Shown here piece by piece: positions 26,691 through 38,717 of a stretch of 64,000 nt of DNA (positions are counted from its first letter, which is position 1; every line of letters starts with the position of its first letter). Position numbers and translations under genes: made by a program. Under the pieces are notes generated by a model. That model was not told the DNA's origin, ran no database searches, and saw only the letters and a program-made list of their open reading frames with translations. The stretch covers positions 1 through 64,000 of the IMG/VR virus record IMGVR_UViG_3300047297_000301; one strand, written 5' to 3'. This stretch comes from a virus.

Positions 26691-29600
26691 ATGAGTCAAC
26701 TAATTGATCTAGGAAAATTACGCTTCCACTTTGCTGGTCAGTGGAGCAATGCCACTACATACGAATCTAATGATATCGTTAAGTACGGTGGTAATGTATA
26801 TGTATATACATTTGCGTTAAAAACAGCTGGCGTATTGCCAACAGACACAGCTTATTGGGCTTTAATGGTAGAGGGTTTTAACTTTACCGGCATATTTAGC
26901 ACAAGCGGCAACTACAAGATTGGCGATGGCGTTGCACACGGTGGTGTTGTATATGTAGCCGTCAAAGACTCTGTAAATATTACTCCTCCTAATGCTACAT
27001 ACTGGTCTAGATTCTTAGACGGTATTCAGTATGAAGGTACATACTCGCCTACAACTTCTTATCAGAAAAATGACGTTGTTAAGTACGGCGGATCTATTTT
27101 TGTTGCAAAACAAGATGGAACAAATAATTTACCTACAAATACAGTTTACTGGGATAAATTTGTAGAAGGTGTTAGCCCTAGTGGTATTTATAATGAAGCT
27201 ACTGCATACAAACCAAATGACTTGGTTGCATACGGTGCTAACATTTACCGTGCTAAAGTTGAAACTACTAATAATGCTCCAAGTAACACTGGTTTTTGGG
27301 AACTATATGTAGGCGGTATTAAGTTTAATGGTAACTTTAATGCTGTAACTGAATACTACGTAAATGATATTGTTGTTTATGGTAATAACATTTATCGTAG
27401 CAAATTAACACAATCTAACACACTGCCTACAGTTGCTGCAAATTGGGAATTGTTAACAGCAGGTAATAGTTACAAAGGTACCTATGTTAACGCTACTGGA
27501 TACTTCCAGGGCGATATTGTTAGTTATGGGGGTAATGTTTATATTGCACTTGGCGTAACAACTGGTAACTTACCTACTGATGCTACTAAGTGGCAAGTAT
27601 ATAGTTCGGGATTCTCTTATCAAGGCAACTGGTCTAGCGCAACTTCTTATAAAATTAATGAAGTTATTGGTTATGGTGGTTCACTGTATCGCGCAAAATC
27701 AGACAATCAAAACGTTAACCCTACAGTTACAGCTACTTGGGATAAAATTGTTGCTGGATTTAAAGTTAGCGGACCTTGGTCTACTACAACACAATACGCA
27801 ACAGATGAAGTTGTTACCTACGGTGGTAATACTTATATCTCTATTCTTCCACACGCTTCCACAGTATTTGCTACAGACTTAGCTGCTAATAAATGGCAAA
27901 AGTTTAACTCAGGTATTCGTTGGATGGGTCCTTGGAACAGTACCACACAGTACTACAAAGACGACGTTGTAAAAGCAGGCGCTAGTTCATTCATTGCAAA
28001 TGTAGATAGTTTAGGCGGTAGTAACCCAGCTGGCGGAACAAATACAGACTGGAGCAGTTTTGCTACTGGTGCTGAAGGATTCTTGTCTAAAGATGGCGAC
28101 GCAATGTTGGGTATGCTTACCTTGTTTGCAGCTCCTACAGATCCGTTACACGCAGCTACTAAAGCTTATGCAGACTTATTTTTAAGTCGTACTGCAGGCG
28201 GTACAGTTACTGGACCAATAGTTGCTAGTGGTGTTACTGCTACTTATACTGCACAAAATGGTGCTACTGTTAATATCAATGCTGGTAGTTTAAATCTTAC
28301 AAACGGTTCAACTATCACAACTGACGGAAGCTCAACATTAGGAAATACCCGCGTTTCGGGTACACTAGATGTTGATGGAGATCTTAACGTTGACGGCGGC
28401 GATTTAACTGTTTCGGGAACTACATTCAATTTAGCCAATACTACGGTTACTACAGTTAATTTGGCAGGTGCTGCTACTACAGTTAATGTTGGTGCCACAA
28501 CTGGTACAACTACTGTTAAGAACAACTTAACAATTGATGGTGATGTGCAGGTTAAAGGCGGTGATCTTACTACCAATCAAACAACTTTCAACTTATTAAA
28601 CAATACAGCTACTACCGTAAATATTGCTGGAGCTGCTACTACTGTTGAAATCGGTGCTGCAACTGGTACAACTAATATTAATAACAACGTAGTTATTGAT
28701 GGTGTATTAGATGTTATCTCTGGTTCTACAGTTACAAATACAACTGTTGATCCTACTGGTTTCGATAACCAACATCCTGATACTCGCGGTGTAGTAGAAT
28801 TTAGTGATAACGGTACACGAGTTTATTCAATCGACAAAAACGGTGACGTTACTGTTCGCGAAGATGGTAAGTTTGCTACTGGCACAGCATATCAAACAAA
28901 CGCAATAGCAAAAACTCTTGCCATTTATCCCGTAGTTGGACAAACAAAGTTTGTGTACTGGATTAGCGGCGTACGTTACGAGAAAACTACTTTAGTAACT
29001 AGTACAGCATCAAATATTAATGGTTATAACTATTTCTACTTTAGTGGTGCATCATTAACAAATGGTACTACACGTAACGACGAGATTTTGACTACAAAAG
29101 CAAATGTTGCTGCTGTTCGCGGAACTAGCCAAAACAATCGCTCAATATCAGTTGAAGATCAACGACACGGCATTTCAATTGATGGAGCTACATTAGCTTA
29201 TATCAAACGTGCTGAAGGTATTAAATTAGTAAGTGGTCATGGTGTTACACCAGGAACTGTTGGTACAGGTACTTATACTAATACTAAAGCGGGCGAATTA
29301 CGCGACGCAGATTTAACTATTACTAGTCCTGTAAAAACAGGTAATAAATTCTTAGTACGCGATGTTAATGACTGGAAACTGGCCGATAATAATGATAATT
29401 TATTAAGCTATAAATTAGGTGTTTTAAGTGCTGTAACAGTTACTGCTCAAGGTAGCGGATATTCAGGATTATCAACTTCATTAAGTGTTCAAGGTGATGG
29501 CGAAGGTGCCACAGTAACTCCAATTTTGGCAGGTGCTGCACTACAATCAATTACACTTAATAATGGTGGATATAACTACGCTAATAATTCTACTGTTACC

Positions 29601-32600
29601 CTTTTAGGCGACGGTACTGGTGCTACGGCAACTATTGTTGTACCACCAGGTAAGAACGTTGCAAGCGCAACTCTTGATACCCTTGGTTCACGTTATACTA
29701 GTGTTAGCGGAGCAGTTGTTGGTGGTGGTGGTACAGGAGCTACAGTTGCTGTAACTCTTAATTTGGGTACTCCAGTTGCTGCTGTACACATGGATAGTCT
29801 AGGAAGTGGTTACACAACTGCTAGTGCTACAATTAATGGTGATGGTACTGGTGCTACTGCAACAGTAACAATTGTTGCTGGAGCAATCACAGATATTAAC
29901 CTAGTAAATTCAGGTACTGGATACACTTACGCAACAGTAATAATTAACGGTAATGGTACTGGTGCGACTGCAACAGTACATACTCGTAAAAGTACAATTT
30001 TTGATTACCAAATTACCAATGTGGGTAGCGATTATACAAGCAATCCTATAGTAACTATTACTGGTGATGGCCACGAAGCTACAGCAACTGCTATAATAAC
30101 TGCTGGTGGTGTAACTGATATTTTAATTACTAATCAAGGTCACGGATATACTTATGCTACTATGACCATTACTGGTGGTGGTGGCACAGGAGCAACAGCC
30201 AATGCAATTCTTAGTGGTTATCCGCTAGGCACTATAACTGTTACAAATCCTGGTAAGAATTATACTAGTCAACCAACGATAGAATTAACTGGTAATCAAT
30301 ACGCTATTGCAGGTTCTGCTTCTGTAACACTAGCTCAAGGTAATACTATTGAAAGTATTACTTTAAATAACACTGGTACAAATTATACGTACGCAACAGT
30401 ACAAGTTAATAGTTCTACAGCAGGCACGGGAGCTAACTTTACAGTTGCTGCCACACCAAGCGGTATTTTAGGTGTTACAGTTACTAATGGTGGGCGTCAC
30501 TATAGTTATGCAAATATTGTTGCAACTGATACTGGTGGGGCTTCTGGATTTACGGCAACTACAACATTGACTCCTGTTCCACAGTATAACAATTATGTTA
30601 ATGTTGGTACAGGATATGACACAAACAATATTCCGGCCGGAAAATTTACTAATACTTACTTTATGGCAGTATCCAGTACTGACCGGGTTGTTAAGATTCC
30701 TAGTTCGTATTTATTTGATACAATACGCGAAGCTTTTCAGTACGCTGAAAAAGAAGTAAAAGAACTACAAACATACGGAATACCTTATACTAATTATAAA
30801 TTTTTAGGTGTGTCAGTTATTAATAGTTCAGGCGAATTGCAAACTATACCTGATACAAATACTGGAAGTGTGCTATACTATGATTTATTAAATAATAGTA
30901 TTAATTCAGCTCCTTTAAATCCTAACGGCGCTAAAGTTGGCAGGTCGTTAACAACAGATGCAACCGGAAATGCTTTAGCATGGTTAGGTGCTACAGAATC
31001 TGCAAAAGTTTATTATGTTGCACCACACGGCCGTGACGCAGTAACTAGTGGTAGTAATATAGCTACTCCGTTTGCAACTATTAAATATGCTTGCCAACGT
31101 GCAGAAGAAGGTTCTACAATTTTTGTTAAAACTGGTACTTATAATGAAAAGTTACCAATTGTTGTTCCACCACATGTAGCTATTGTTGGTGATAATCAGC
31201 GTACAGTAAATATTCAGCCAACTACTGGTTTGAGTGACGATGGCGTTACACCAAATAATCAATCATCAATGTTTTTAATGAGCAACGGCTCAATTATAAA
31301 CAAAGTGACTATGAAAGGTATGACTGGTTGGGTGCCTGGTAGTATTCCTAGTGATATTACTACTTCTACAATTAAAGGTGTAGTAGTTAGGTTGAATCCT
31401 GCTTCTCCTGTGCTTACTAAATCTCCTTATGTTTTGGAATGTTCATTTATTGGTTCAGGTGCTATTGGTGCTTTAATTGATGGTACAGTTCATAACACTG
31501 GTGCTAAAACCATGATTTTCCATGGCTATACTATTATTAATGATAATGGTGTTGGCTACTGGGTTAAAGATGAAGGTAAGTCAGAGATTGTAAGTTGCTT
31601 TACTTATTATAATTATTTTGGTTACATAGCAACCGGTGGCGGATTTATTCGTGCGCTGAATGGCAACAATAGTTATGGTACTTGGGGTGCAACATCGCAA
31701 GGATTTGGAGCATCTGAAACAGCAATAACTGGATCATTGATAGGTAGACAACTTAATTTTGTTTATACTGGTGGTACAATTAATGTAGGCGACACGTGTA
31801 CAAGTAGTGGTGGTGGTACTGGTATTGTTACTAATGTACAGTACAGTGCTAATAAAATATATTTAAAGAATACTACTGGTAACTTTACTTTTGGTAATAG
31901 TTTAACCTTTCCTAATGGAGGTACTGGCACTATCAGTGCAGGTGCATTAGAGGATCAAAAAGGTTTTGTATTAGTATTAAATAATTTAACAGCTGCACCT
32001 ATACCAGGACAAAGTATTCAGCTAGCTGGTGATACGTATGCTTATGTTATACAGAGTACAACAGGAACATACGTAAATAGTGCTAGCGAAGTAGCTGTAA
32101 TTTTAGCACAAGAAAAACCAAGCGGTAGTGCTAGTGGTACCGTAGCTACTTTACGCAGCAAGTACTCGCAAATTCGTTTAACTGGTCACGACTTCTTGTC
32201 AATTGGTACAGGTGGTATTACTACTACAAATTATCCAGGTACGCCAATACAAGCGGCTGCTCAAGGTAATGAAACAAATGAAGTTTTTCCAGGACGTGTC
32301 TATTACGTAAGTACAGACCAAGACGGTAACTTCCGTGTTGGTGAATATTTCCGTATTGATCAAGCAACTGGACGTGCTACTTTAAATGCTAACGCATTTG
32401 ACTTAAGTGGTTTGACTAGTTTGAAGTTGGGTTCGATTGGCGCACAGCTGGGCGAAACTATTAATGAGTTCTCCAGCGATATTACTTTAAGTGGTAACTC
32501 AAATACTGCTGTTCCAACAGAGTATGCAGTTAAAAATTATGTTGATAATAATAATGAAATATACTTATCTAACACAATTAGTTTTGATAAATCATTACCG

Positions 32601-32720
32601 CCTAACAAGTTAGCGTTTAGTATGGGTTCACTTACATTAAGTGGTACGACTACGTATACGATACAAGATGGTGCTTACCATACGATTATGAATCCTACTG
32701 GATTTGCACTTTCAAAATAA
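26691..32720 (+). CDS. Giant tail fibre: nine carbohydrate-binding-like modules, ten Gly repeats, beta-helix
   Basis: 2009 residues. Residues 8-460 hold nine copies of a roughly 48-residue module (W/Y-x-TTxY-xxNDVVxYGGxxYxA-x-PTxxxxWxxxxxG), the pattern of chitin-binding type 3 / CBM5-12 domains. Next comes a shaft with two similar TTVNxAGAATTVxxGAxTGTT units (about 580-670). Residues 910-1300 hold ten copies of a 37-40-residue unit (ITVxNxGxxYTxxxxxITGxGTGATATA). From about 1435 a pectate-lyase-like beta-helix begins with KVYYVAPHGRDAVTSGSN and FATIKYACQRA. The C-terminal part is beta-rich with no recognisable chaperone. Together these suggest a long adhesive appendage for surface polysaccharide. 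Confidence 0.8.
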   Translation: MSQLIDLGKLRFHFAGQWSNATTYESNDIVKYGGNVYVYTFALKTAGVLPTDTAYWALMVEGFNFTGIFSTSGNYKIGDGVAHGGVVYVAVKDSVNITPPNATYWSRFLDGIQYEGTYSPTTSYQKNDVVKYGGSIFVAKQDGTNNLPTNTVYWDKFVEGVSPSGIYNEATAYKPNDLVAYGANIYRAKVETTNNAPSNTGFWELYVGGIKFNGNFNAVTEYYVNDIVVYGNNIYRSKLTQSNTLPTVAANWELLTAGNSYKGTYVNATGYFQGDIVSYGGNVYIALGVTTGNLPTDATKWQVYSSGFSYQGNWSSATSYKINEVIGYGGSLYRAKSDNQNVNPTVTATWDKIVAGFKVSGPWSTTTQYATDEVVTYGGNTYISILPHASTVFATDLAANKWQKFNSGIRWMGPWNSTTQYYKDDVVKAGASSFIANVDSLGGSNPAGGTNTDWSSFATGAEGFLSKDGDAMLGMLTLFAAPTDPLHAATKAYADLFLSRTAGGTVTGPIVASGVTATYTAQNGATVNINAGSLNLTNGSTITTDGSSTLGNTRVSGTLDVDGDLNVDGGDLTVSGTTFNLANTTVTTVNLAGAATTVNVGATTGTTTVKNNLTIDGDVQVKGGDLTTNQTTFNLLNNTATTVNIAGAATTVEIGAATGTTNINNNVVIDGVLDVISGSTVTNTTVDPTGFDNQHPDTRGVVEFSDNGTRVYSIDKNGDVTVREDGKFATGTAYQTNAIAKTLAIYPVVGQTKFVYWISGVRYEKTTLVTSTASNINGYNYFYFSGASLTNGTTRNDEILTTKANVAAVRGTSQNNRSISVEDQRHGISIDGATLAYIKRAEGIKLVSGHGVTPGTVGTGTYTNTKAGELRDADLTITSPVKTGNKFLVRDVNDWKLADNNDNLLSYKLGVLSAVTVTAQGSGYSGLSTSLSVQGDGEGATVTPILAGAALQSITLNNGGYNYANNSTVTLLGDGTGATATIVVPPGKNVASATLDTLGSRYTSVSGAVVGGGGTGATVAVTLNLGTPVAAVHMDSLGSGYTTASATINGDGTGATATVTIVAGAITDINLVNSGTGYTYATVIINGNGTGATATVHTRKSTIFDYQITNVGSDYTSNPIVTITGDGHEATATAIITAGGVTDILITNQGHGYTYATMTITGGGGTGATANAILSGYPLGTITVTNPGKNYTSQPTIELTGNQYAIAGSASVTLAQGNTIESITLNNTGTNYTYATVQVNSSTAGTGANFTVAATPSGILGVTVTNGGRHYSYANIVATDTGGASGFTATTTLTPVPQYNNYVNVGTGYDTNNIPAGKFTNTYFMAVSSTDRVVKIPSSYLFDTIREAFQYAEKEVKELQTYGIPYTNYKFLGVSVINSSGELQTIPDTNTGSVLYYDLLNNSINSAPLNPNGAKVGRSLTTDATGNALAWLGATESAKVYYVAPHGRDAVTSGSNIATPFATIKYACQRAEEGSTIFVKTGTYNEKLPIVVPPHVAIVGDNQRTVNIQPTTGLSDDGVTPNNQSSMFLMSNGSIINKVTMKGMTGWVPGSIPSDITTSTIKGVVVRLNPASPVLTKSPYVLECSFIGSGAIGALIDGTVHNTGAKTMIFHGYTIINDNGVGYWVKDEGKSEIVSCFTYYNYFGYIATGGGFIRALNGNNSYGTWGATSQGFGASETAITGSLIGRQLNFVYTGGTINVGDTCTSSGGGTGIVTNVQYSANKIYLKNTTGNFTFGNSLTFPNGGTGTISAGALEDQKGFVLVLNNLTAAPIPGQSIQLAGDTYAYVIQSTTGTYVNSASEVAVILAQEKPSGSASGTVATLRSKYSQIRLTGHDFLSIGTGGITTTNYPGTPIQAAAQGNETNEVFPGRVYYVSTDQDGNFRVGEYFRIDQATGRATLNANAFDLSGLTSLKLGSIGAQLGETINEFSSDITLSGNSNTAVPTEYAVKNYVDNNNEIYLSNTISFDKSLPPNKLAFSMGSLTLSGTTTYTIQDGAYHTIMNPTGFALSK
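26712..28070 (+). repeat. Nine tandem CBM5/12-like modules
   Basis: Nine units of 48-52 codons, each with an aromatic near the start, ND(I/V)V or similar, YGG, a (Y/F)xA strand and a closing W. The eighth and ninth units have short insertions. Confidence 0.82.
29419..30585 (+). repeat. Ten tandem Gly/Thr-rich beta units
   Basis: Ten units of about 37-40 codons with consensus xITVTNxGxxYT...VxITGxGTGATATAxI. The units vary, so this is an old expansion. A single similar motif occurs in the gene at 25692. Confidence 0.8.
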
Positions 32721-32732
32721 GGATAATATTAA

Positions 32733-33704
32733 ATGTCAAAACTTGTAGTAGATACAATTCAAAGACCAGGGGGAGCGGCAGTGTCGTTCCCCGTTGCTGA
32801 CGGCACAGCAGGTCAATTTTTAAAAACAGATGCCGCAGGTAACCTAACATTCAGTAATAGTTACAGTTTTCCAAGCGTACCTTTACCAATAATTGCCCAA
32901 GAAGCTAAAGGTATAGTTGGTTCTGTATCCAGTTATACTGATCGTGCTAATACTTATAGTTCGCCCTCATGGTCCTCATCGGGGCCTAGTGGCAGTACTT
33001 ATACAAATTATACTGCTCATGATGACCCTAGTTTAATACAATTTATTAATATGGCATTAGGTGACGGAGTACCCCAAGGTACTACCGAGTGGTTTATAGG
33101 TGATGACGATCGTGGTAGCGGTTCTAGAACTTTAATGTTTGCTAATGGTGACCGTTTAGGGTATAAACGAGATAGATTACAGTGGTCAAATAGTACAGGT
33201 AACGCGGGACATACTTTTAGAATTATGCCTATTCGTAATAATTCAGCATCAGCTATAAGCGTTCCTTTTTATGCAAGAATGAGTGACTATTATTCTTCTG
33301 GATATGAAGGCTGTTGCATGTTTGTATTAACGCCAAATACTAGTACATATAGTACTGTGACTACAGTATCTTCTACTCGACTTGCTTATTCGCAAAGTAG
33401 TGGTGATACAAACGGCCCTCAAGCTTTTAGTGGTACTCATAGTATTCCTGCTAATACTACAGTATTAGTATGTTTAGCAAGTACTAATTCATATCAAACT
33501 ACTTATAGATTTAAAGATACAAATTATTTTTATTATTTAAATACTAGCTATACTTTTGCTGATGCAAATATTGTGTGTGATATGCGGATGTTAAGCTCAT
33601 TATACACAAGTAACTTTAACCTGCCTAATTCAGGAACCTGTAATGGCACCGGTATTTTAGCACCTCTTTGGACTAAAACTGCCACTAATTTTGGAGATAG
33701 ATAA
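32733..33704 (+). CDS. Tail fibre paralogue 1
   Basis: 323 residues, first of three related genes (with 34112 and 35393). The N-terminal 50 residues (KLVVDTIQRPGG, then GTAGQFLKTDAAGNLTFS) are a fibre attachment module. The body shares with its paralogues SYTDRANTYSS, QFINMALGDG, LGYKRDRLQW, HTFRIMPIRN and TTYRFKDTNYFYYL, and it ends in FGDR. It is probably a receptor-binding tip. The codons for Gly-Asp-Arg-stop include GGAG, which serves as Shine-Dalgarno for the next gene. Confidence 0.6.
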   Translation: MSKLVVDTIQRPGGAAVSFPVADGTAGQFLKTDAAGNLTFSNSYSFPSVPLPIIAQEAKGIVGSVSSYTDRANTYSSPSWSSSGPSGSTYTNYTAHDDPSLIQFINMALGDGVPQGTTEWFIGDDDRGSGSRTLMFANGDRLGYKRDRLQWSNSTGNAGHTFRIMPIRNNSASAISVPFYARMSDYYSSGYEGCCMFVLTPNTSTYSTVTTVSSTRLAYSQSSGDTNGPQAFSGTHSIPANTTVLVCLASTNSYQTTYRFKDTNYFYYLNTSYTFADANIVCDMRMLSSLYTSNFNLPNSGTCNGTGILAPLWTKTATNFGDR

Positions 33705-33705
33705 A

Positions 33706-34098
33706 ATGTTTGTAAAATTCAATGAACAAAATATGGCAAAAGAAGTTTTGGGACTATTGCCACCTGGAGAAAATCCAGCAGACTGGACAGTTTGCAGCGA
33801 TGAACTAATGTCTGCTCGTCGTATTATTAAAGATGGTGCTACTGTACGTGCTGCAACAGATGCTGAATGTGATGCTGAATTAGCTACACTTCGCGTTGCG
33901 GCTGCTGCAAATAAAATGCGTTGGGAACGTGACCAAGCCTTAGCACTTTCGGATAGTTTAGTACTACCAGATCGTTTTGCCAAATTTACTGCTGCTCAAC
34001 AAGCTAGTATTACTACTTATAGAGAAGCTTTGCGTAATCTTCCAAATCAAACAGGGTTTCCACTTGAGGTTACAATTCCTGCTGCACCAGTACTATAA
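33706..34098 (+). CDS. Tail fibre assembly chaperone-like protein
   Basis: 130 residues. The C-terminal half (RWERDQALALSDSLVLPD, then TYREALRNLPNQTGFP) matches the Phage_tail_APC / fibre-assembly pattern 'RDxLLxxSD...YRxALRxLPxQ..FP'. Such proteins help fold or attach fibres and usually follow a fibre gene, as here. The ATG at 33706 is preferred over an in-frame TTG at 33691 because GGAG at 33693-33696 lies 9 bases before it. A second copy of the family is at 37694. Confidence 0.6.
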   Translation: MFVKFNEQNMAKEVLGLLPPGENPADWTVCSDELMSARRIIKDGATVRAATDAECDAELATLRVAAAANKMRWERDQALALSDSLVLPDRFAKFTAAQQASITTYREALRNLPNQTGFPLEVTIPAAPVL

Positions 34099-34111: not shown

Positions 34112-35392
34112 ATGTCAAAGATTATAGTAGACCAAATACAAAAACTAACAGTGCCTAGTAGTCCTAGTGTGCTTGCGGTTACTAATTCGGGTTCAGGCTC
34201 TTATACTATTAATACAGCAACTAACCCAACACTAACCTTAGTTAGAGGTTCTACTTATACCTTTAACGTGAATGCCGTTGGACACCCTTTTCATATACAA
34301 ACAGTAAACAGTGCTTACAGCTCTGGAGACGTGTATACTAGCGGGGTAACAAATCCAGGAGCATCTTCAGGTACTATAACTTTTACAGTACCTAACGGTG
34401 CCCCGAATACTTTATATTATGTTTGCCAATTTCACTCAGCAATGCGTGGAACAATTAACATAATTGATAATACTGCGGCAGCTTTTAATATTCCTGCAAC
34501 AGATGGAACTATTGGTCAGTATATGACAACTGATGGTAGTCGGAATCTGGGTTGGTCTACTATGGATTATACAGGCCCCCAATCTCTAACAGCAATACCT
34601 ATGCAAGAAGGTAAAGGTATTATAGGCAGTATTGTTACTCATAGCGATCGTCAAAATACATATTCTAGTGAAGAGTGGACAACTGGTCCTTGGACTACTT
34701 TTTATAACTATGCTATTAGCTCAGATAACCATGCTATTCAATTCTGGAATATGGTTTTAGGGGATGGTTTTGCTAATAGGACTGATACTACTACCCAACG
34801 TATGATGGGTAGTGATTCAGAACATCAATTTGCAAGAACATTACAGTTTGCCGCAGGTAGACGCCTTGGTTATGCCAGGGATTTCTTTCACTATGATAAT
34901 GCTACTGGCTATGCTGGTCATAGCTGGAGAGTTATGCCAGTACGTAATACTACCGCATCACCAATTACAATTACTATTAGTGGACGAGCTAGTGATTATA
35001 CTGAAAACGGGCATGAGGGTGCTTGTATAGCAGTTTTTGAACCTAATACTACTAAGTATAGTACAGTAACAGCCGTTACAGGGACTCAGGTTGCGTACAG
35101 TACTACCAGTAGTCAAAGTTTAAATCTAACTGGCAGTTATACTATACCAGCAGGTAAAACTGTGTTAGTATGCTTAACTAGTACTGATCATTATATGACT
35201 ACATATAGATTCCGTGACACAAATTTCTTTTATAACCTAGAAACAATCTTTCCTACAGGCGTTATTTGTGATTTACGTATGTTGCATAATTTACATAGTA
35301 GTAGATTTGTAGATTTAGCTTATACAGGTAGTTTTACACCACAAATTTCAGCTATTTGGAAACAATGTGCAGTTAACTATGGAGACAGATAA
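34112..35392 (+). CDS. Tail fibre paralogue 2 with cupredoxin-like domain
   Basis: 426 residues. The first 10 and last 270 residues parallel the paralogues at 32733 and 35393 (SHSDRQNTYSS, then QFWNMVLGDG, HSWRVMPVRN, TTYRFRDTNFFYNL and a YGDR end). Residues 15-118 are an extra beta-sandwich with YTFNVNAVGHPFHI and YYVCQFHSAMRG. His58 (or His61), Cys105, His108 and Met111 reproduce the type-1 copper ligand set with the Cys-x2-His-x2-Met spacing of amicyanin. Copper binding is inferred, not shown. I recall similar HPF...YYxCxxHSxM segments in marine phage virion proteins. Good Shine-Dalgarno (AGGAG) upstream. Confidence 0.65.
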   Translation: MSKIIVDQIQKLTVPSSPSVLAVTNSGSGSYTINTATNPTLTLVRGSTYTFNVNAVGHPFHIQTVNSAYSSGDVYTSGVTNPGASSGTITFTVPNGAPNTLYYVCQFHSAMRGTINIIDNTAAAFNIPATDGTIGQYMTTDGSRNLGWSTMDYTGPQSLTAIPMQEGKGIIGSIVTHSDRQNTYSSEEWTTGPWTTFYNYAISSDNHAIQFWNMVLGDGFANRTDTTTQRMMGSDSEHQFARTLQFAAGRRLGYARDFFHYDNATGYAGHSWRVMPVRNTTASPITITISGRASDYTENGHEGACIAVFEPNTTKYSTVTAVTGTQVAYSTTSSQSLNLTGSYTIPAGKTVLVCLTSTDHYMTTYRFRDTNFFYNLETIFPTGVICDLRMLHNLHSSRFVDLAYTGSFTPQISAIWKQCAVNYGDR

Positions 35393-36352
35393 ATGTCAAG
35401 AATTTTTGCTGATCAAATACAAAAACCTAGTGGAACTGCATTTAGTTTACCAATAGGTAACGGAGCCCTCAATCAATTTATTCAAACTGATGGGCAAGGA
35501 AACTTGTCTTTTGAAAATCCTGTAATTTATCAACCAGGAGAAACTTACTTAGTTGCTCCTGAAAGTGCTTATAACGTCGGTACAGTATCTTCGCATACTG
35601 ACCGTCAAAATATTTATTCAACAGGTGAATGGGGCTCAAGTAGTTCTTGGACTACTTATACAAATTATTCAGTACACACTGATAATACTGCTATTCAATT
35701 TTGGAATATGTTAATGGGCGACGGGTATAGTAACGCTAGTGCTACCACTGAGCGTATGCAAGGAGCTGACTCAGAAAATGAGTTACCCCGTAGATTACAA
35801 TTTGCAAGCGGTAATCGTGTAGGGTATATGCGCGACGTATTTCACTATGATAATAGTCAAGGCGAACCAGGACATACTCTTAGATGTCTGCCCATTCGTA
35901 ATACTAATTCAGGTAGTGTTTCGGTAAGTGTAAGTGGTGTTGTATCTAATTATTGGAGTAGTGGCCAAGAGGGTGCTCAAATAGCTTACTTTACTCCTAA
36001 TGCTGGTAAATATAGTACAGTTACTGCTGTAACTGGAACAAGTGTGGCTAACTTAACTAGTAATAATATTAGAGCAAAAGAACTAACAGGATCAGTAACT
36101 ATTCCTGGAAATACAACCGTACTAGTTACCTTAACTAGTACTGACTGGTATGAAACTACGTATCGATTTAAAGACTGCAACTATTTTTATAAGTTACACG
36201 AAACTTTTACGGGAACTAATGGAGTAATTTGTGATATGCGTATGTTATCACATTTAGCTCGCGGAAGACCTTATTTACCATATACAGGAAGTTTAGCTAC
36301 TGCTTTAGCTCCATTATGGACAACTTGCGCAACGCAGTATGGAGATAGATAA
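35393..36352 (+). CDS. Tail fibre paralogue 3
   Basis: 319 residues. Closest in build to paralogue 2 without the cupredoxin insert: attachment lead (RIFADQIQKPSGTAFSLPIG), then SHTDRQNIYSTGEWG, QFWNMLMGDG, GADSENELPRRLQFASG, HTLRCLPIRN and a C-terminal QYGDR. Its start depends on GGAG inside the last codons of the preceding gene, and its own last codons supply GGAG (36341-36344) for the gene after it. Likely an alternative or co-assembled receptor-binding protein. Confidence 0.6.
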   Translation: MSRIFADQIQKPSGTAFSLPIGNGALNQFIQTDGQGNLSFENPVIYQPGETYLVAPESAYNVGTVSSHTDRQNIYSTGEWGSSSSWTTYTNYSVHTDNTAIQFWNMLMGDGYSNASATTERMQGADSENELPRRLQFASGNRVGYMRDVFHYDNSQGEPGHTLRCLPIRNTNSGSVSVSVSGVVSNYWSSGQEGAQIAYFTPNAGKYSTVTAVTGTSVANLTSNNIRAKELTGSVTIPGNTTVLVTLTSTDWYETTYRFKDCNYFYKLHETFTGTNGVICDMRMLSHLARGRPYLPYTGSLATALAPLWTTCATQYGDR

Positions 36353-38180: not shown

Positions 38181-38717
38181 ATGACTACATTAAAAGAGTT
38201 AACTCATGAAATTCATGAACAAGCAGAATTCCATCCATTTACTAAACTAGTTTTATCAAAAAATATTACTAATCAGATATACGGGGATTTTTTATATAAT
38301 CAGCACGCAGTATACCATACACTGGAAACAGTAGCTGGTATACGTGGATTATTAACAGACTTGCCAGGATTATGTCGAGCTGACTTAATACGTGAAGATT
38401 TAGACGACCTAAGTATAACAACCGTCAAACTATATACTAGCACTCACAAGTATACTCACTATGTGGCATGCAATCTAACAGATGATCAATTACTAGCGCA
38501 CCTATACGTACGACATATGGGCGATATGTATGGCGGTCAAATGATTAAAAAATGTGTTCCTGGCAATGGCCGTATGTATAAGTTTGAAAATCGCAAAGAA
38601 TTAATTCAAGCTTTGCGAAACAAATTAGATACCTCAATGGCTTCTGAAGCCATTCATTGTTTTGGTTATGCTATTCAACTATTTACAGAGTTAGCCAATG
38701 AGCACAATATTCAGTAA
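38181..38717 (+). CDS. ho1: Biliverdin-producing heme oxygenase
   Basis: 178 residues. Opens heme to biliverdin, releasing Fe(II) and CO. The proximal heme ligand is His12 in THEIHEQAEFHPF, matching the TKEVHxQAENxxF motif of HO-1. The distal helix is VRHMGDMYGGQMIKK (residues 110-124), matching the YxRYLGDLSGGQ signature, with the flexible glycines kept. FLYNQHAVYHTLE fits helix 2. It is slightly shorter than most bacterial and cyanophage HO1 proteins. It overlaps the bilin reductase gene by 20 bases, so the two are co-expressed. No ferredoxin gene is in the window, so electrons would come from the host. Identity is firm; activity is inferred. Confidence 0.9.
   Translation: MTTLKELTHEIHEQAEFHPFTKLVLSKNITNQIYGDFLYNQHAVYHTLETVAGIRGLLTDLPGLCRADLIREDLDDLSITTVKLYTSTHKYTHYVACNLTDDQLLAHLYVRHMGDMYGGQMIKKCVPGNGRMYKFENRKELIQALRNKLDTSMASEAIHCFGYAIQLFTELANEHNIQ

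Follow-up and report, generated by a model that had tools for sequence, protein, structure and literature searches.

Why would one tail fibre among three paralogues carry a predicted type-1 copper site? The question is raised by a gene on the plus strand at 34112-35392 of a 64,000-nucleotide stretch of viral DNA (positions 1 to 64,000 of IMG/VR record IMGVR_UViG_3300047297_000301, hereafter the window), in whose product the initial annotation had recognised a cupredoxin-like N-terminal domain with a complete set of type-1 ligands. The open reading frame, its coordinates and the residue numbers given there for His58, His61, Cys105, His108 and Met111 are all correct, and the central claim is now supported by the predicted fold, the ligand alignment and family-wide conservation.

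The fibre gene and its paralogues

In the list of open reading frames, the gene (fibre B, 426 residues) is accompanied by two paralogues on the same strand, fibre A (32733-33704) and fibre C (35393-36352). All three products start with the same 11 residues (MSKIIVDQIQK), within a common tag of 11-13 residues (MSKIIVDQIQKLT in fibre B, 34112-34150, plus strand; helical at residues 3-10 in the AlphaFold2 model) that precedes the cupredoxin domain, and residues ~120-426 of fibre B are 47-50% identical to both A and C. The alignment further contains a stretch of about 110 residues of fibre B that is a gap in both paralogues, exactly at the cupredoxin domain (residues ~20-119, about 100 residues; 34169-34468, plus strand), which bears out the earlier claim that neither paralogue has it. 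No second copy was found in the window with a domain profile, and when the 99.7-kb record was searched with the domain as it stands in the window, only the self-match came up.

The assignment of 34112-35392 as a tail fibre, a well-founded one as far as gene context can tell, comes from its neighbours on the plus strand: the tail-fibre assembly chaperone (Phage_tail_APC) at 33706-34098 (PF16778, E=8.8e-13; tail fibre assembly in PHROGs) and, further upstream, the gene of a long tail fibre of 2009 residues at 26691-32720 (phrog_9851 tail fiber, E=4e-228). Fibre B very probably belongs to the virion. The long fibre itself combines five carbohydrate-binding CBM_5_12 stretches with glycine-rich repeats. 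The major tail protein of the window phage shares 34-35% identity with its counterparts in Vibrio siphophages, phages that we take to be T5-like, and the same phage encodes a heme oxygenase (38181-38717; PF01126, E 1e-15) whose sole annotated phage relative, at 39% identity, is found in Pelagibacter phage Mosig. The photosystem D1/D2 family, sought in the record as a clue to the host, is absent.

The body of fibre B has no match among annotated phages. A structure model of the full-length protein was unusable (pLDDT 39), so that where the domain sits along the fibre had to be deduced. Tail fibres are usually attached to the tail by their N-terminus and contact the host with their C-terminus. 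The extra domain therefore probably lies close to the fibre base, next to the tail, a place that makes it an improbable receptor-binding tip.

Fold and ligands of the extra domain

Template-free AlphaFold2, run with 53 relatives, gave a confident model of the domain (mean pLDDT 90.2, pTM 0.82; pLDDT about 95-98 across most of residues 31-120), which is predicted to be all-beta, with eight strands of at least three residues, in keeping with the Greek-key sandwich of 7-8 strands that typifies type-1 cupredoxins. In a Foldseek comparison of this model with the PDB, rusticyanin came first, followed by AcoP, the purple cupredoxin of Nitrosopumilus, plastocyanin, auracyanin and amicyanin; further matches were azurin with a CAAHAAM loop (3fs9, 2xv2), nitrite reductases and multicopper oxidases. 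All of the PDB matches listed are cupredoxin-fold proteins, and the structural comparison thus upholds the cupredoxin reading. The TM-scores are moderate (0.41-0.57 over a query that includes the floppy N-terminus), and set the domain apart as a distinct cupredoxin subfamily. In the model, His58 directly precedes strand 60-63, Cys105 is the end of strand 100-105, and His108 and Met111 lie in the loop ahead of strand 112-118; such a layout, with a Cys ending the penultimate strand, a His and a Met in the next loop and a His before a strand, is the cupredoxin arrangement as predicted.

Sequence comparison gives E-values to known cupredoxins that are weak on their own. The window protein has nothing above cut-off in Pfam and gives no match at all to Copper-bind (PF00127) or Cupredoxin_1 (PF13473), which its relatives match weakly (best E 0.026 and 0.034, respectively), and neither it nor its relatives reach an NCBIfam cut-off. 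When a profile was compared with PDB sequences, the best eight matches were rusticyanin, at weak E-values of 0.04-0.18 and with the four ligands in register. A PDB search with the single sequence was discarded, its matches being at chance level (Auracyanin B at E 0.64). Two other weak Pfam matches recur, to DUF4352 and to the plant At5g54830-like domain (PF25489); the latter matches the region 34112-34483 weakly over its full length in 24 of the 53 family members (best E 4e-5), and the plant domain is possibly related to cupredoxins at a distance. The superfamily may already be marked in structure-based databases.

Ligand conservation was measured across 87 aligned distinct domains, taken from phage contigs as well as from annotated phages, with 85 letters at the ligand columns. 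All positions that follow are on the plus strand. The N-terminal predicted ligand, His58 (34283-34285), lies in a GHPF motif, is His in 82/85 and aligns with rusticyanin His85; the predicted thiolate ligand Cys105 (34424-34426) is kept in 84/85 and aligns with Cys138; the predicted C-terminal His ligand, His108 (34433-34435), is invariant (85/85) and aligns with His143; and the predicted axial ligand Met111 (34442-34444), which aligns with Met148, is Met in 83/85, with one Gln. The initial annotation had also listed His61 (34292-34294) as part of the site. Here it went astray, for position 61 is W, Y, H, R or L elsewhere (W 37, Y 10, H 10 and R 8 among 85 letters), and His61 was ruled out as an alternative ligand, the residue being mostly Trp in other domains. 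Among about 96 columns, His108 ranks first in conservation, Cys105 third, Met111 fourth and His58 fifth, and the naive probability that four given columns fall in the top five is near 1.5e-6 (5 in 3.3 million). The conservation of the ligands is not due to chance.

Since the peptide seeds of the first search held three of the ligands, the search was redone with a ligand-free seed, an alignment of the stretch 62-101. It returned 52 distinct domains, with His58 in 52/52 and Cys, His and Met in register in 51; the exception (L184) is a one-residue shift that leaves all ligands intact, so that they are present in 52/52. A further set, collected by tblastn from annotated phages, is free of ligand-seed bias as well. 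One single-residue exception is the Asn at position 58 in S-H9-2.

By both profile and fold, the closest known protein is rusticyanin (PDB 1rcy, 2cak and others), which shares the His-Cys-His-Met ligands but has a longer Cys-Met loop (C-x4-H-x4-M) and is a periplasmic electron carrier rather than a virion domain. The loop of the fibre domain is instead identical to the C-x2-H-x2-M of amicyanin, as had been remarked from the sequence: amicyanin's ligands are His53, Cys92, His95 and Met98, and the spacing equals that of the last three (PMC12723479). The amicyanin model TIGR02657 gives weak matches in 14/53 members and none for the window protein, and the fibre domain, unlike amicyanin, has no methylamine dehydrogenase partner. 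The CAAHAAM entries 3fs9 and 2xv2 found by Foldseek are azurin into which the short amicyanin-type loop was grafted. Residue 59, next to the first His ligand, is Pro in 79/85 domains and in 52/52 of the ligand-free set, whereas amicyanin has Asn54 and rusticyanin Ser86 at this place, indicating a second shell unlike either; the position is one that tunes redox potential and stability (PMC12723479).

Distribution and modularity

The domain is by no means confined to this one fibre. A search for it in other phages by tblastn found it in 354 phage records, nearly all of them phages of Synechococcus or Prochlorococcus. The majority of these matches fall in the terminal part of the "baseplate wedge tail fiber connector" (phrog_677), which thus has the same domain with the same ligands at its C-terminus: window residues 15-119 match positions 302-410 of the 412 in phrog_677 (E=3.5e-25), and the domain makes up its last 110 positions, which are without a label in PHROGs. 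The start of the connector is T4 gp9/10-like in Syn19 (PF07880, E 5e-10, in gp9) and forms its N-terminal half, in contrast to the window, where an unrelated fibre with no PF07880 match has the domain at its N-terminal end. Most of the connector's first 300 residues is found in 287 records and most of the domain in 322, which are similar counts. The domain is also present in a fibre-like protein of P-SSM2 and in fibres of podoviruses (P-SCSP2 and P-GSP1), and four loci (L029, L031, L061 and L064) have two copies within a single long protein. It may be N-terminal, central or C-terminal in unrelated proteins.

Beyond phages, exported lipoproteins of Flavobacteriia and Myxococcales have the domain, ligands included, at one terminus, where it is joined to Lipoprotein_15 or CHRD in cellular, membrane-anchored proteins rather than in virions. 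The bacterial carriers comprise Flavobacteriia, Myxococcales, Neomarinimicrobiota and others, and several have an apparent lipoprotein signal. These cellular loci were found with ligand-containing seeds, and their ligand conservation is therefore partly built in, except for Met111. No copy was found in the plasmid collection searched.

Three further groups of proteins were observed alongside this family. A second phage subfamily (GHPIKFSTTNG...YYYCQNHSGMGA; L073-L076) has the same ligand pattern in other proteins of phage contigs. The cyanophage gene that follows the connector (L083:3253-6237, L082:3328-6363) encodes more divergent cupredoxin-like stretches, only some of which have the ligands. 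In BFVD, two small stand-alone proteins of giant viruses, A0A481Z6J5 and A0A481YVH3 (Pithovirus LCPAC302 and Marseillevirus LCMAC201), have the same predicted fold.

Relatives show that the domain can be dropped. The loci L002-L011 have the same gene order, with the domain in the middle paralogue only (L007 ends before the third paralogue). L201 also has this gene order, and its middle paralogue reads MSKIIVDQIQKLT-GGV-AAFNIP, that is, the tag leads on without the domain. This syntenic fibre without the domain marks the latter as a swappable module. In the tree of fibre bodies, L201 lies within the domain-bearing group with moderate support (92/93), which slightly favours a loss over a second gain; the domain-bearing rows require two changes on the tree. 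A similar difference is seen between cyanophages, the domain being absent from the baseplate region of S-CREM2 and present in S-N03 of the same cluster. The virion proteome of S-CREM2, the one such proteome checked, was considered as direct proof of a virion location and set aside because its baseplate proteins are without the domain. To judge from these sequences, the module may be present or absent, and the metal site is kept almost whenever the module is there.

This pattern bears on the proposal that the domain is a metal-free beta-sandwich spacer whose ligand residues are kept for folding. The shuffling of the domain into many tail proteins does resemble the use of a generic spacer, and single-residue exceptions exist, such as the Asn at 58 in S-H9-2 and the Gln at 111 in one domain. 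However, hardly any glycine or core residue of the 87-domain alignment is conserved as strictly as the four ligands, which the cellular proteins keep as well. We consider a metal-free spacer very improbable, the lowest-ranked of the explanations discussed here.

Possible roles of a copper site in phage tails

The computations establish the fold, the positions of the ligands, the almost complete retention of these residues in relatives from both phages and cells, and the modular presence and absence of the domain. These results are best accommodated, in our opinion, by a mobile, virion-exposed cupredoxin module with a copper-loaded type-1 (His-Cys-His-Met) site that serves stability or adhesion, a reading that we hold with fair confidence. 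In one of the three paralogues, such a module would form an insertion that separates the attachment tag at the N-terminus from the fibre body, and it would recur, as Ig-like domains do, in many unrelated structural proteins of phages. The domain very likely binds one copper ion. Loading could take place inside the cell, during assembly, or after release; of the two, scavenging of copper from the water after lysis seems slightly more plausible. The domain can be dropped and yet almost never loses its ligands when present, which is best read as a copper-dependent use. As to what that use is, we see an even chance that a rigid, copper-locked beta-sandwich serves the tail as a side module that stabilises it or aids adhesion, with no part in electron transfer or sensing; this function is favoured by the lack of an identified partner and by the start, middle and end positions of the domain in unrelated structural proteins. 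A structural role alone would leave the strict retention of all four ligands unexplained, as many proteins of this fold are copper-free. We infer that a stabilising or weakly anchoring beta-sandwich ranks first, ahead of a copper bait, redox sensing and a metal-free spacer.

The type-1 sites of known cupredoxins are electron-transfer centres (PMC12723479, PMC4059628), and the PDB neighbours listed above are redox copper proteins, both of which would suit a redox device in which copper, alternating between Cu(I) and Cu(II) at the host surface, would either report contact or shield the virion from oxidants. Against such a device, a redox partner domain was found neither in the fibre of the window nor in its neighbours, the domain occupies N-terminal, middle and C-terminal positions in unrelated proteins, and no conserved docking patch emerged; we therefore regard it as quite unlikely.

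A bait or bridge, in which a copper-uptake or copper-binding component of the host surface recognises the copper of the virion and aids adsorption, would do with copper what the "Ferrojan horse" is proposed to do with iron. Most phages that have the domain are those of picocyanobacteria, whose plastocyanin needs copper, and the strict conservation of the ligands implies that the metal matters. Metal in fibres also has a precedent in the iron bound by HxH in T4 gp37 and predicted for the fibre of Alteromonas phage R22Y (PMC11705849). These fibres share with that of the window, as predicted, the presence of a metal in a phage tail fibre, and differ from it in metal, fold and ligands; the His-x-His repeats of the iron-binding motif are absent from the window domain, where His58 and His61 form only an HxxH with an unconserved His61. 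A bait would nevertheless be poorly placed at the tail-proximal N-terminus seen here, or in baseplate connectors elsewhere, rather than at fibre tips. The metal of a type-1 site is buried, the domain is missing from the syntenic L201 and from the S-CREM2 baseplate, and the phages that have it apparently infect different hosts. The bait is thus unlikely, if less so than the redox device. More broadly, functional copper centres in the tails of marine and freshwater phages might take part in infection, as bait or as contact redox switch, which we think doubtful; equally doubtful is that they represent a counterpart of the iron Trojan-horse idea common to myo-, podo- and siphovirus lineages.

Returning to the stabilising module, the fold and the site are known, and what is new is their place in virion tails of several phage lineages; the literature searched, the coverage of which is incomplete, held no earlier report of a cupredoxin in a phage tail. 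Judging from the predicted sites, aquatic phage particles probably bear copper. Should the sites be loaded, several copper ions would reside in each virion of a large fraction of cyanophages, with a bearing on phage attachment, on virion stability in sunlit water and on the holders of dissolved marine copper. The C-terminus of phrog_677, for which there is no Pfam or NCBIfam model above cut-off, becomes a candidate metalloprotein that can be tested in the isolates Syn19, S-RIM2 and P-SSM2. A natural test of the copper reading is provided by L040, where the domain at residues 310-404 of the open reading frame from 3934 has its axial Met replaced by Gln (C-x2-H-x2-Q), a variant that resembles stellacyanin-type sites.
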